From Spirochaetales bacterium (GTDB lineage: Bacteria; Spirochaetota; Leptospiria; Leptospirales; Leptonemataceae): a DNA stretch of 64,000 nucleotides. Position numbers and translations under genes: made by a program. Under the pieces are notes generated by a model. It made no database searches and was not told the DNA's origin. It worked only from the letters and a program-made list of their open reading frames with translations. The DNA lies in the NCBI GenBank assembly GCA_015075425.1, contig JABTUL010000001.1:1116001-1180000 (forward strand). Reading direction: 5' to 3'. Shown here one piece after another: positions 44,023 through 49,046 of this stretch (position 1 is its first letter; each line of letters begins with the position of its first letter).

Positions 44023-45267
44023 ATGGCTGAAGATAAACTGGACGAACTTCCCCCTTCCGACCTGGATGATATGGATCTGGCCGACCTGGATCTGGATTTG
44101 TCGGATGATATGTCGGGACACGATGGACCGCTGGATTCGGACCTGGATCTTTCCTCCGACCATTTACTGGGCGATGATTTTCTGGCCGGTGAATCGGCTC
44201 CTGCAGCTGACGATGATTTCAGTGAACCGGTGGACCTTGATGCTGAAGAGCTGGAGCCCATCGCTCTTTCCGATGATGAGCTGGAAATGATCCTTGAATC
44301 GGCTCCGGAAGATCATGAGCTGGAAGGCACCGGCAACGAATCCCTGGAAGCCGCAGGCGATGAACTTCCCGATTTCAGTGACGATGTGACGGAACTTAAT
44401 CTGGAAGAAGCGCATGCGGACGATGACTTTGGTCTTTCTGACCCCTTCACAGCTGGCGTCCCGGAATCCGAGCTGGACCAGGAATTGATCACGCTCAGTG
44501 ATGAACCTTTCGAAGCTCGTGCAGATGGGTCGGTGATTCTGGAAGACCTTCCGCCGGCCCTTGATGATGATGAAGAAAATGTAGCACTGTCTGAAGATGA
44601 ACTGGGCAATATTTTAGCCGATGTAAACCAGGACGCCGTTCTTGATGCCTCCGCCGCAATGGAGGAAGATATCACTCTCTCGGACGCAGAACTGGGCGCT
44701 GCTCTTTTTGATGAAAATGAACTGCAACCCGCAGCTCAGGCAGAACTTCAGGAAGCCACACCATCCGCCTTCGATGAACTGGACGATGACGGGCCGATTA
44801 CCCTGACCGCAGATGAGCTGGGCAATATCGTGGCCGATCTGGAATCTGAAGAGGCCCCGGAGATACCTGTGGCTGCAGCTGCTGCCATGCCGTCGATTCT
44901 TGATGATGACGATGAAGAACCGGTCGCTCTCTCTGAGGATGAACTGAGTCTGATTCTTGAGGATGTGGCTGAAGCCCCCGCAGCAGAAGCCGAAAAAAAC
45001 ATCATCGTCCTGGATGAATACGAAGAGGATTCCGCACCGGCCCCGGCTGCTGCGGCTGCCGCAACTGCTGTGGCTGTGGAGCCTGCCCGCGATGAGATGA
45101 TTCTGCAAACGGCGGGGGATCTGCATCTTGAACCCCAGGAGTTGCGCAAGATGATCGGATATCTGGACCAGCTTTTCGATAAGCTCCCGGAAGAGACCAT
45201 AAAAGAATTTTCTCGTTCTGAATATTTTGACCTTTATAAGAAAATCATGACGGAATTGGGTCTGTAG
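44023..45267 (+). CDS. Highly acidic short-motif repeat protein
   Basis: 414 residues, very rich in Asp, Glu, Leu and Ala, mostly disordered. A short motif of the form (I/V)(A/T)LS(E/D)DEL(G/E)xIL recurs: residues 80-92, 187-199, 217-229, 259-271 and 301-313, with a partial one at 156-164. Spacings vary (24-107 residues), so these look like separate docking sites rather than a tandem fold. Residues 357-414 form a compact helical end (LQTAGDLHLEPQELRKMIGY, LDQLFDKLPEETIKEFSRSE). No catalytic motif. It probably acts as a scaffold that gathers partners. The gene is immediately followed by a GAF protein with its own repeated motif. Confidence 0.68.
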   Translation: MAEDKLDELPPSDLDDMDLADLDLDLSDDMSGHDGPLDSDLDLSSDHLLGDDFLAGESAPAADDDFSEPVDLDAEELEPIALSDDELEMILESAPEDHELEGTGNESLEAAGDELPDFSDDVTELNLEEAHADDDFGLSDPFTAGVPESELDQELITLSDEPFEARADGSVILEDLPPALDDDEENVALSEDELGNILADVNQDAVLDASAAMEEDITLSDAELGAALFDENELQPAAQAELQEATPSAFDELDDDGPITLTADELGNIVADLESEEAPEIPVAAAAAMPSILDDDDEEPVALSEDELSLILEDVAEAPAAEAEKNIIVLDEYEEDSAPAPAAAAAATAVAVEPARDEMILQTAGDLHLEPQELRKMIGYLDQLFDKLPEETIKEFSRSEYFDLYKKIMTELGL

Positions 45268-45271
45268 GAGG
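45266..45271 (+). promoter_or_regulatory. Strong ribosome site overlapping a stop codon
   Basis: AGGAGG overlaps the TAG of the acidic protein gene and lies five bases before the GTG at 45277. It supports that GTG as the true start and ties the expression of the two genes. Confidence 0.75.
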
Positions 45272-45276
45272 CGCCG

Positions 45277-47538
45277 GTGGGCCTCCTTTCGCGATCCCTT
45301 GCCCTTAAAGAAGAAAAAGAACCCGTTGCCGAAGTCCAGGGGCAGGGTTTGCTGGCACGGGCATCGGCCTGGCGGATGGGTGCGCGTACTTTCGATGCCG
45401 CGCCTCCGGCCACCGGACTGCTGCGTCGGGCCATGGCGCTCCGGGAAGGAGTCCGTGGTCTGCGGGCCCGGGCCATGGAGTTTGCTCGCGGCAACACGGC
45501 ACCGGCCAGTGAATCGGAGAGTGAAACAACCGCAACCGCTCCGGTCAGCAAACCGGAGAGTGGACTTTTAGCCCGGGCCATGCAGGCGCAGAAGGCCGGA
45601 GAGCTCAATGCTCCGGTCCCGGTGGAACCAACTTTGGGCGAGCCAGCATTTAACGAACCAGCATTTAACGAACCAGCATTTAACGAACCAGCATTTAACG
45701 AACCAGCATTTGACGAACCAGCATTTGACGGGCCAGCATTTGAAGAGCCTGCATTCGAGGAGCCTGCATTCGACGAGCCTGCACTTAGCGAACCAGCACT
45801 GAACGAACCAGCATTTGATGAGCCTGCCCCTGCCGTGTCTTCTTTCGACGCATCGGCTTTTGACCGGCCATCTCTTGACGAACCCGCCTCCGATCCGGGC
45901 TGGGAGCTGCCAGAATCTGTGGCCGACGCATTTGATGAAGAACCGGACCCCTTTGTCCGCTGGAAGGAAGAAGCCTCCGAGCAGGTGGAAGAGAAGCTGC
46001 TGGAGAAGCCGGCAAAAGTCACCTCCGGAGATACTTTTCTGTTTGCCGATGAAGGCACAACAACGGTCCCCGAAGATCAACACATTGCCAGCCAGAAGAA
46101 AATTGATAATTATCTTGCACTGTTCGATATTACCCGCGAAATCAATGCCCTGGATTCTCTGGAAGATCTCTGGGACGCCGTGCTCTATGCCATCCTTGGT
46201 CAGATGGGCTCCGATAGCATTGCCATCTTTGCTGGCTCAGTCCAGGATCCGCGCATTTTTGAACCGGTGGCAGCAACCGGACTGGAACTGAGGGCGGATT
46301 GGGTGCTGAGCCCCGGAGATCCTCTCTATGAAAGTCTGGCGCAAAAGGAAGGCGTTCGTTATGTGGCGGAGTTTGAGGCACAGGCCCTTTCGCCTCTGGA
46401 ACGAGAGATTATCGACAGAGGGCGCTTTAAGATCTTCGCTCCGCTGTGGAACCACGGTGCCATGTATGGCATCGTGATGCTCGGGGAACAACTTTCCGGT
46501 GATGATTATGCCGTGGAAGACCTGGAGTATTTAACTCTGCTGGGTGCGGTGGCGGCCGCCGGGCTGGATCGATTGCGTGCTCGCGAAGAATTTGCCATCT
46601 CCACACAAGAGCTGCGCCGACGAACCGATCTGCATCAACAGATTTTTGCTTTCTCGCGGGCCACGTCTGCGGCGCGAAGCCTCGATGAACTTTATGATTT
46701 GTTGCTGTCGCGATTGGAGAAGACTTTCGCAGTGGAGTCTTTTTCCCTGGTGCTGCTCAGTCCGGCACAGAGAACCTATCGGATTTTTGGCGGGAATGCC
46801 ATAAGCCCTCAGAGCATGGAGAAGTTTCAGCTATCAAGTGATTCGGAATTGGTGAGCATGATTTCGAACGTAACACATATCTATGAAGTGACGGCTTTTC
46901 GCGACAATGCGGAAATTCAGAGCTGTTATACAAACGATGATCTTTCGCTCATGCAGCAGTACTGGGTTTTGCCCCTGATCAATCTGAACTGGCTCGTGGG
47001 CTTTGTTACTGTCCATCGTCTGAGCCGACCCTGGGATGCAACCGAACGTGAGCTTGCTGTGACTCTTGTGGAAATCATGGCTCCAGCTTTTGCCAATGCT
47101 ATCATTCTCAAAGAAAGGGAATCGATTTTCCGGGATCCGTTCAGTCCGCTGGAAGATCGGTTACGTATTGAACTCGATCGGGCCCGGGAATTCAGTTCGC
47201 CTCTGTGTTTGATTGATTTTCGAGTGAAAAATATCAAGCGATTGCTCGCGTTGAATCCCAAAGAGGAGATGAGTCGATTTTTGCTTTCACTGAGTCGGGC
47301 GACCGGTGGATTTCTTCTGGAAGGCGATTTTTTAACCCGCATTGGACAGGGACGATTTGCCATTCTGCTACCCGGCCGCACAAAAGCCGAAGCCGGTATT
47401 TTCAGTGAGAAGCTTCAGTCGGAGCTCCGCCGCTTGCGACTGATGGCCTCTTCCCCTGTGGAAGCTCAGTATTCCTGTAAGATTCATTCAAACCAGGAGA
47501 TCCCGGGTGCCGAGCAGATGCTTGCCTTGCTGGAATAA
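45277..47538 (+). CDS. GAF-GAF-degenerate-GGDEF protein with N-terminal motif repeats
   Basis: 753 residues. Residues 2-104 carry five copies of a basic amphipathic motif, GLLxRAxxx: positions 2, 24, 47, 61 (GLRARAMEF) and 96. Residues 122-186 are 13 copies of a five-residue unit EPAF(N/D/E). Two GAF-like domains follow (about 270-415 and 440-600), and a C-terminal region in GGDEF style where the signature reads GQGRF in LTRIGQGRFAILLPG, so it cannot make c-di-GMP. No membrane segment. It could be a cytosolic sensor-scaffold. The basic GLLxRA repeats may dock on the acidic repeats of the preceding protein (inference). GTG start with a perfect ribosome site. Confidence 0.72.
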   Translation: MGLLSRSLALKEEKEPVAEVQGQGLLARASAWRMGARTFDAAPPATGLLRRAMALREGVRGLRARAMEFARGNTAPASESESETTATAPVSKPESGLLARAMQAQKAGELNAPVPVEPTLGEPAFNEPAFNEPAFNEPAFNEPAFDEPAFDGPAFEEPAFEEPAFDEPALSEPALNEPAFDEPAPAVSSFDASAFDRPSLDEPASDPGWELPESVADAFDEEPDPFVRWKEEASEQVEEKLLEKPAKVTSGDTFLFADEGTTTVPEDQHIASQKKIDNYLALFDITREINALDSLEDLWDAVLYAILGQMGSDSIAIFAGSVQDPRIFEPVAATGLELRADWVLSPGDPLYESLAQKEGVRYVAEFEAQALSPLEREIIDRGRFKIFAPLWNHGAMYGIVMLGEQLSGDDYAVEDLEYLTLLGAVAAAGLDRLRAREEFAISTQELRRRTDLHQQIFAFSRATSAARSLDELYDLLLSRLEKTFAVESFSLVLLSPAQRTYRIFGGNAISPQSMEKFQLSSDSELVSMISNVTHIYEVTAFRDNAEIQSCYTNDDLSLMQQYWVLPLINLNWLVGFVTVHRLSRPWDATERELAVTLVEIMAPAFANAIILKERESIFRDPFSPLEDRLRIELDRAREFSSPLCLIDFRVKNIKRLLALNPKEEMSRFLLSLSRATGGFLLEGDFLTRIGQGRFAILLPGRTKAEAGIFSEKLQSELRRLRLMASSPVEAQYSCKIHSNQEIPGAEQMLALLE
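45640..45834 (+). repeat. 15-base tandem repeat (VNTR) inside the GAF protein gene
   Basis: Thirteen in-frame 15-base units (consensus gaaccagcatttaac) encode EPAF(N/D/E). The first five are nearly identical and later ones diverge, as expected for recent slippage at one end. Copy number is likely to vary between strains. The repeat also keeps open long frames on the opposite strand, which are not genes. Confidence 0.9.
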
Positions 47539-47552
47539 TCTGCATTATAGAA

Positions 47553-47840
47553 ATGCTTGTAATGCAAGACAAAGACGGAAAAACGTCCCCGGTGTGCTGG
47601 GAGGTCTACATGATCCAGACCAGAAAAGGTCGGCTGTATACCGGAATCTCCACCGATCCGGAGCGCCGCTTTGCCCAGCATGCACGCGGTCAGGGAGCGC
47701 GCTACTTCCGGTTTGATCGGCCGGAACGCATTGTGTTTCGAGAGACCTGTGCGGATCGTTCGCGGGCTTTGCAGCGGGAGGCGGAACTCAAAAAACTATC
47801 GCGGCGGGCCAAAGAAAAACTCCTGGAGTGTCTTTTGTGA
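47553..47840 (+). CDS. GIY-YIG-domain protein (UPF0213/YhbQ-like)
   Basis: 95 residues. The GIY-YIG core is VYMIQTRKGRLYTGIS, then DPERRFAQHARGQGARY and REAELKKLSRRAKEKL. This is the small single-domain family (YhbQ). Nuclease activity is possible: the Tyr pair and an Arg are kept; the family's usual Glu appears in AELKKL. The first ~12 residues are uncertain; an ATG at 47562 is an alternative. Its end overlaps the lipoprotein gene by 13 bases. Confidence 0.85.
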   Translation: MLVMQDKDGKTSPVCWEVYMIQTRKGRLYTGISTDPERRFAQHARGQGARYFRFDRPERIVFRETCADRSRALQREAELKKLSRRAKEKLLECLL

Positions 47841-48394
47841 TTCGACTTCTTTTTATCCTTCTTTTATTGCAGTGTGCTTCGCCGTCACGCTTGAGTACGA
47901 GCTATGACCCCGAGCAGCCGCTCTATCCAGTGGCTGACGATGATGCATTTTTCCGCTTCAAGCCGGCAAAAGAGGAAGTTTTCAGGGTTTTGATTTCCCG
48001 CGAAAACTACCAGATCCGGCAAATTGCAGAAAAAGATGAAATCAAAAGGCGCAGAGATGTTGAAGGCGATCGGGCCGCCATCGAAGTGTTTTCCAGGTTT
48101 CATGATCGTTATGCTTTCAAAGACTGGATCATGACAGCCACTCTGCGCGTACGGCTTAATCCGCAAACCGGGAACCTGGAAAATCTGGAATTTGTTTCCA
48201 CAGAGAATCCAACTACCTGGCAATTCGGTAAACTGGTTCAGAATGATTTTGCCCGCTATCGCTTTGATCACCCGGGCCAGGTCAGGTCGCGCAATTTTCG
48301 CGTTCGTTATGAGTTACGTATCAAGCGCAGTGCCGGGATGACTGATGAAGAGGCCCGGGAAAGGGCGCTTGAGTTTTTGCGAGGCGAACTCTAA
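47828..48394 (+). CDS. Lipoprotein, unknown
   Basis: 188 residues with a short signal peptide and a relaxed spirochaete lipobox (LLLLQCAS, Cys at about 16). The rest is a predicted beta-rich domain (IMTATLRVRLNPQTG and FRVRYELRIKRS) with no recognised family. GTG start; another GTG three codons later is also possible. Its gene overlaps the GIY-YIG gene. Confidence 0.65.
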   Translation: MSFVIRLLFILLLLQCASPSRLSTSYDPEQPLYPVADDDAFFRFKPAKEEVFRVLISRENYQIRQIAEKDEIKRRRDVEGDRAAIEVFSRFHDRYAFKDWIMTATLRVRLNPQTGNLENLEFVSTENPTTWQFGKLVQNDFARYRFDHPGQVRSRNFRVRYELRIKRSAGMTDEEARERALEFLRGEL

Positions 48395-48395
48395 A

Positions 48396-49046
48396 TTGCT
48401 CCTGGTCATTCCATTCTCTCTCAGCCTGCTCATGGCCCTTGCAGGCTTTTTGGCTCTTGGCCTGCTGGGAGTGACCCTTTACATCCTTATTCTTAAGCCT
48501 GCCCGGGAAGCGCTCGCTGATACTTTAAGTCCGCCGCCGCGAGAGGGGTCAGAAGAAGAAATTACCATTACAACGGGCAGAATCCGTACTATGGGTATTG
48601 GACAGATCGATTCTGATTTCAAAACCCGAATGCATGGCATCAAAGAGGATCATCTGGTAATCAAGTTACGTCGGGATCCAGAGGTGGAAAGCTATACCAT
48701 TTCGCTGTCTCCAGGCGGTCCCGTATTCTATCGTGCTCCGCATCAAAAGACATTTGAGCTGATGAGTGGTGCGGAAAGTTTTGAATCCAGTGAATTGATC
48801 GGTCATCCGGCAGTATTGCGCTTGGCCGCTCTGGTCCGGGACCATCGCCCGATTCAGTTTGTGGAGTTCGAGATGTCTACCCGGTTTTACATCAACAATT
48901 CCGGTGAAGAAAAGATGAAATTTTTATTGAAAATAAACAAGATTTATCCGTCCATTGATCTGGATTCAAGGGATAAGCGCGGGGTTTTTCTTTTTGGCCG
49001 GCTCAAGCGGGAAGGTCCGGAGGACGCGGACAGTGCTGCAGCCTGA
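48396..49046 (+). CDS. Membrane-anchored protein, unknown
   Basis: About 216 residues. One or two N-terminal membrane helices (PFSLSLLMALAGFLALGLLG, VTLYILIL) and a soluble domain of mixed alpha/beta character. No family known. The TTG at 48396, one base after the previous stop, is preferred: an ATG at 48345 would lie 50 bases inside the lipoprotein gene. It overlaps thrC by 14 bases. Confidence 0.55.
   Translation: MLLVIPFSLSLLMALAGFLALGLLGVTLYILILKPAREALADTLSPPPREGSEEEITITTGRIRTMGIGQIDSDFKTRMHGIKEDHLVIKLRRDPEVESYTISLSPGGPVFYRAPHQKTFELMSGAESFESSELIGHPAVLRLAALVRDHRPIQFVEFEMSTRFYINNSGEEKMKFLLKINKIYPSIDLDSRDKRGVFLFGRLKREGPEDADSAAA

Follow-up and report, generated by a model that had tools for sequence, protein, structure and literature searches.

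A conserved two-gene module of Spirochaetota with a likely link to flagella

Two adjacent genes with short repeated motifs

Two adjacent genes, A and B, are found at positions 44023–47538 of the window, the 64,000-nucleotide stretch of DNA that was analysed (Table 1). The product of gene A has a net charge of −118 over 414 residues, an average of −0.29 per residue, and carries five copies of an LSxDELxxIL-type motif. These copies share the pattern [IV][AT]L[ST]xxELxxh[LV] and are irregularly placed, with spacings of 107, 30, 42, and 42 residues between successive motifs. Motifs of this type are nearly absent from shuffled A (mean of 0.00 and maximum of 1 in 500 composition shuffles), which bears out the initial annotation of an acidic protein with five irregularly spaced repeats. 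In an AlphaFold2 model of A alone, the fifth motif is a short helix predicted with moderate confidence (pLDDT of about 74), and the C-terminal domain consists of three helices (pLDDT of 78–85). In this model, as in that of a fusion to B, these helices come after a disordered chain. No family for A was found in Pfam or NCBIfam, the only match at E ≤ 1 being a sub-threshold one to ZIP4, and a PDB sequence search with a profile of the C-terminal domain gave nothing better than an E value of 0.36. Structure comparison of the C-terminal model pointed to an antitoxin and to sigma-factor helices with Z scores no higher than 4, which were taken as generic helical resemblance.

The stop codon of A is part of a TAGGAGG sequence that lies 5 nt ahead of the GTG start codon of B, in agreement with the ribosome-binding site previously proposed to sit inside this stop. 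The five GLLxRA-type copies described for B are present, four of them meeting the strict pattern (mean of 0.02 and maximum of 1 in shuffled B). Their reported basicity is slight, however, with a net charge of +4 over the first 110 residues, and the first and fourth copies read GLLSRS and GLRARA. The repeat-encoded spacer that follows is probably a fast-changing linker. Of the two GAF domains recognized by Pfam, the first is predicted with a pLDDT of about 95 in a model of B fused to A. The Pfam GGDEF match in the window's B falls below the cut-off (0.0048) and is significant in an orthologue (2.8e-8). Where RxGGDEF is expected, this protein reads RIGQGRF, with GQGRF at the GG[DE]EF position, and the canonical GG[DE]EF motif is found in 0 of 66 aligned B proteins. 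Based on these residues, the GGDEF-like domain is predicted to be catalytically dead, as had been annotated along with the GAF domains. The best Foldseek match of the B model is 5llw, with an E value of 1.2e-17 over the GAF-GAF-GGDEF region.

Table 1 Features of the A–B locus in window coordinates.
Feature	Position	Strand	Basis
Gene A, acidic, mostly disordered scaffold-like protein, 414 aa	44023..45267	+	ORF reading, orthologues
A motif 1, IALSDDELEMIL, residue 80	44260..44295	+	Pattern and profile match
A motif 2, VALSEDELGNIL, residue 187	44581..44616	+	Pattern and profile match (9.6e-10)
A motif 3, ITLSDAELGAAL, residue 217	44671..44706	+	Pattern, profile search
A motif 4, ITLTADELGNIV, residue 259	44797..44832	+	Pattern, profile search
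A motif 5, VALSEDELSLIL, residue 301	44923..44958	+	Pattern, profile search; predicted short helix
C-terminal helical domain of A, QELRKMIGYLDQLFDKLPEETIKEFSRSEYFDLYKKIMTELGL	45130..45264	+	Phylum-wide profile; helices in model
AGGAGG ribosome-binding site, overlapping the A stop, 5 nt before the GTG start of B	45266..45271	+	
Gene B, GLLxRA N-terminus, GAF-GAF-degenerate GGDEF, 753 aa	45277..47538	+	ORF, Pfam, model
B motif 1, GLLSRS, residue 2, extreme N-terminus; copy conserved phylum-wide	45280..45297	+	
B motif 2, GLLARA, residue 24	45346..45363	+	
B motif 3, GLLRRA, residue 47	45415..45432	+	
B motif 4, GLRARA, residue 61	45457..45474	+	
B motif 5, GLLARA, residue 96	45562..45579	+	
15-bp tandem repeat, about 12 copies, coding for an (F)xEPA / EPAF-type spacer in B	45625..45824	+	
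GAF domain 1 of B, residues 294–432	46156..46572	+	Pfam GAF_3 PF13492, 2.1e-8, above cut-off
GAF domain 2 of B, residues 469–602	46681..47082	+	Pfam GAF PF01590, 8.7e-6, above cut-off
Degenerate GGDEF-like domain of B, residues 625–737	47149..47487	+	Weak Pfam match, Foldseek

Conservation of the pair in Spirochaetota

Within the order, B was found in 29 of the 30 genomes searched, the window's own included, and A lies directly upstream of B in all 25 fetched loci where both are readable. In the window's family, the gene block is composed of ATP synthase genes, A, B, a lipoprotein-like gene, a membrane protein gene, and thrC. In the sister family, it is composed of ATP synthase genes, usually a small SLBB gene, A, B, and MBOAT. 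The pair thus adjoins the ATP synthase operon and not flagellar genes in this order. Regulation of the ATP synthase by A and B is not favoured, because most other clades do not show this linkage. The window's lipoprotein-like and membrane protein genes (47828–49046), which have no Pfam match, are conserved downstream of B at 17 loci of the family. A small GIY-YIG ORF directly after B in the window (47553–47840) has a similar counterpart in just four other loci, which suggests that it entered the block recently. At three loci of one genus (L041, L043, and L045), a receiver-PAS-kinase gene, checked by Pfam in L045 only, lies between atpC and A. At locus L046 (G010), B itself contains an A-type motif, ITLTAEELADL, around residue 160.

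The C-terminal domain of A (its last 45–60 residues) was found in 212 of 296 Spirochaetota genomes, in single copy in nearly all of them, and homology detected with the B profile likewise extends outside the order. Across the phylum, A proteins are mostly 300–1300 aa long and always acidic, with a median net charge of −138. Most families have one copy of the motif in A and Leptospirales have many. Over 209 copies, the L, E, L, and I positions of the motif are nearly invariant, the first three being partly fixed by the search pattern. The downstream gene, defined as the first start within 60 nt after A, begins with M-[GS]-L-x-x-x-A in 72 of 105 loci compared with 0 of 724 background ORFs; a start of M[GS][LF] is seen in 81 of these loci and 10 of the background ORFs, and the median gap to A is 3 nt. 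Given the spread of the A domain and this recurring downstream start, the two motifs are signatures of a two-gene module that has been conserved.

In 80 of 102 A proteins, one or more motifs score higher than any shuffled sequence, and B follows A in most loci across the phylum, so that motif conservation and gene linkage in relatives, on which the initial annotation had staked its proposal, both hold. A scan of 84,980 species for relatives returned 30 loci, all from Spirochaetota wherever the group was named. No description of the pair was found in the literature, including c-di-GMP inventories of Leptospira, in which an ATP-synthase-linked pair is not mentioned. With neither a paper nor a Pfam or NCBIfam family for A, the earlier statement that no system of this kind has been described stands within the literature and databases searched: A–B is a real, conserved, and undescribed module.

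The two proteins vary in their repeats. B is shrunk to 250–350 aa in Treponema-like genomes, one of them T. pallidum-like and 1.14 Mb in size, and its N-terminal motif is still there. In a clade of about 20 loci, the clean A motif is gone and the B sequence MGLLEKA is retained. Based on the phylum-wide comparison, the constant parts are thus the N-terminal GLLxKA of B and the C-terminal domain of A, and the repeat expansions are variable. Several A proteins of the clade without the clean motif (L104, L105, L157, L161, and L169) contain a variant ILxLSEDDLIEELExFD segment, which could be a diverged single copy of the motif. At a set of Treponema-like loci (L090, L096, L098–L102, and L108), the A proteins have a common N-terminal ELDxYGVWVK motif, and two Maf-like PF01973 proteins follow B. 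Two assemblies from one genus (L109 and L140) are interrupted at almost identical points within A, which upstream repeats may explain.

Association with flagella

The neighbours of A and B differ by clade and include ATP synthase genes (32 loci), pairs of Maf-like PF01973 genes (26–28), FliM (10), FliS (7), and FapA (5). A bactofilin gene is found at 3 loci. FliM is present in 267 of the 296 Spirochaetota genomes, and 201 of these 267 also have A. Among the 29 FliM-negative genomes, 11 have A, and 10 of these 11 are incomplete MAGs. In one FliM-negative family, presumably Sphaerochaeta-like, A is absent from the four listed genomes, which are 96–99% complete. Nearly all sampled flagellated spirochaete groups keep the pair, the exceptions being the Borrelia-like group and most of the Brachyspira-like group. 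Specifically, A was undetected in a flagellated small-genome family inferred to be Borrelia (f38), and a flagellated family inferred to be Brachyspira (f14) is mostly without it, so A is not essential for flagella. The link between A and flagella is therefore strong, and it is neither exclusive nor obligatory. The nature of the neighbours (fliM, fliS, FapA, and Maf-like genes), together with the absence of A from the listed non-flagellated genomes, suggests a flagellum-linked assembly, and a flagellar role for the pair is likely.

Candidate mechanisms and known systems

The reading that we tentatively prefer, with a chance as a whole that falls somewhat short of even, is that A and B constitute a spirochaete two-gene signalling module, likely flagellum-linked, in which an acidic scaffold is combined with a GAF sensor-like client. 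In such a module, A would be a long acidic disordered tether that is strung with short hxLSxDELxxIL helices and ends in the conserved three-helix domain, through which it would self-associate or be anchored. The helices along the tether would capture a folded partner. B would be a soluble protein that combines GAF(-GAF) with a GGDEF-like domain devoid of catalytic activity and with at least one amphipathic GLLxKA helix at the N-terminus. Using its GLLxKA helices, B would dock on the assembly, and it would relay the state of a ligand or second messenger to the flagellar machinery. Given the linkage of the genes, physical binding between A and B is reasonably probable.

Docking of the GLLxKA helices on the C-terminal domain of A, with the LSxDELxxIL helices left to bind a third protein, is a real possibility, since hardly any genome lacks either of these two features, even in the clade that has no clean A motifs. 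The A stop codon is in frame with B, so a read-through fusion could be modelled with AlphaFold2, with the stop read as Q; judged by pLDDT and without contacts, this model is a weak test. In the fusion, the first GLL helix of B is the best-predicted copy, with a pLDDT of about 72 compared with 40–60 for the others. However, this helix lies a few residues past the C-terminal domain, which may lift its score, and the domain itself is no better predicted when fused (74–81) than in A alone.

It is doubtful that A is instead a general polar or condensate organiser of the PopZ type with no specific flagellar task, its flagellar neighbours then being due to polar biology or chance. The architecture and charge density of A are like those of PopZ, and the neighbourhood does change between clades, from ATP synthase to bactofilin. 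In contrast, the absence of A from the listed non-flagellated family and its occurrence in three different flagellar or motility-associated contexts argue against such a general role.

The multivalent assembly originally proposed, in which direct binding would take place between the acidic LSxDELxxIL helices of A and the basic GLLxRA helices of B, now appears quite improbable. The linkage of the genes and the co-conservation of the motifs are consistent with this pairing, as are the motif copy numbers in the window's family, which track each other (rho of 0.71, n = 20, for related genomes that are not phylogenetically independent) and include a genome with strict counts of zero for both. The similarity in copy number is not shared by the sister family, however, where 12–15 A motifs are accompanied by one B motif, and the opposite charge of the two proteins is not general, as only about 20% of genomes encode a B whose N-terminus has a net positive charge. 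In addition, the B motif persists where the A motif has been lost, and fusion to B brings no gain in pLDDT for A in this weak test, the value for the A motif being about 59 in the fusion compared with 74 in A alone. Thus, from the counts, the charge, the motif-loss clade, and the fusion model, direct pairing of the motifs is not supported. Finally, that A is a low-complexity acidic protein under weak selection, as its strong acidity and variable length might suggest, is practically untenable, because a compositional origin of the motifs is refuted by the shuffles and by the near-invariant (in part pattern-fixed) motif residues, and the C-terminal domain is conserved phylum-wide.

For the partner captured by the A motif in the preferred reading, a lead is provided by FliM. 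A profile of the motif, searched against all locus ORFs, 13 whole genomes of relatives, and the PDB, revealed no second motif-bearing family; in the 13 genomes, the motif is confined to A, bar one weak match in a B. A scan with the motif consensus recovered the FliM N-terminus, LSQDEIDQLL, in 10 of the 10 FliM proteins of the set, with scores of 28–30, and just four other sequence segments reach a score of 28, which makes FliM the highest-scoring class outside A. The whole-genome profile search does not reach FliM, so this likeness is treated as a lead and not as homology, and it may be the convergent likeness of a short N-capped helix. No Pfam match to the FliM middle domain (PF02154) or the FliN C-terminal domain was found in A, and the window's genome has a separate FliM. 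The sequence EIDALL in FliM/FliY is the site for CheY-P (PMC9126983), and a literature search for proteins with multiple EIDALL motifs gave FliM/CheY background only. Because the A motif resembles this CheY-binding peptide, a CheY-like receiver is the leading candidate for what the A helices would capture, and a receiver domain in this place is conceivable rather than probable. More speculatively, A could be a spirochaete CheY antenna, in which one to about 15 FliM-N-like helices would gather phosphorylated receivers near the motors, with B as a ligand-gated tuning client. Such an antenna would insert, between the chemotaxis signals and the motor, a level of control that is not described elsewhere.

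Spirochaetes coordinate motors at two cell ends. The A–B pair, which follows flagella in much of the phylum and has a T. pallidum-like genome among its carriers, is a concrete, testable candidate for the organisation of such signals, as it is conserved, mostly single-copy, uncharacterised, and scaffold-like with putative docking peptides. In addition, the range from one to about fifteen docking motifs is a natural series for the evolution of multivalency in bacterial disordered proteins.

Among known systems, the disordered region of PopZ has a charge of −0.28 per residue, close to the value for A, and is combined with three C-terminal helices (PMC9512792). PopZ and A share an acidic disordered chain followed by a short C-terminal helical region, as well as a partner-binding helix, putative in A, outside the folded part (PMC9512792). 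No homology to PopZ was detected for the C-terminal region of A (no Pfam match; best PDB profile E value of 0.36), and PopZ, which is confined to alphaproteobacteria, has one N-terminal binding helix, whereas A has repeats with no sequence match to it. The N-terminal peptide of FliM/FliY has in common with the A motif a short N-capped amphipathic helix with the core L-S-x-D-E-[IL]-D-x-[IL]-L. In contrast to this peptide, the A motif is internal, occurs in up to 15 copies, fixes EL and not EI, and carries one more I, placed two residues ahead of the core leucine. Lastly, B resembles GAF-linked diguanylate cyclases, such as the bacteriophytochrome-activated cyclase 5llw, in its GAF domains, GGDEF fold, and long signalling helices between modules. 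It differs from these enzymes in that the GGDEF signature is lacking in 66 of 66 proteins, the N-terminus is extended by GLLxKA, and B is always paired with A.
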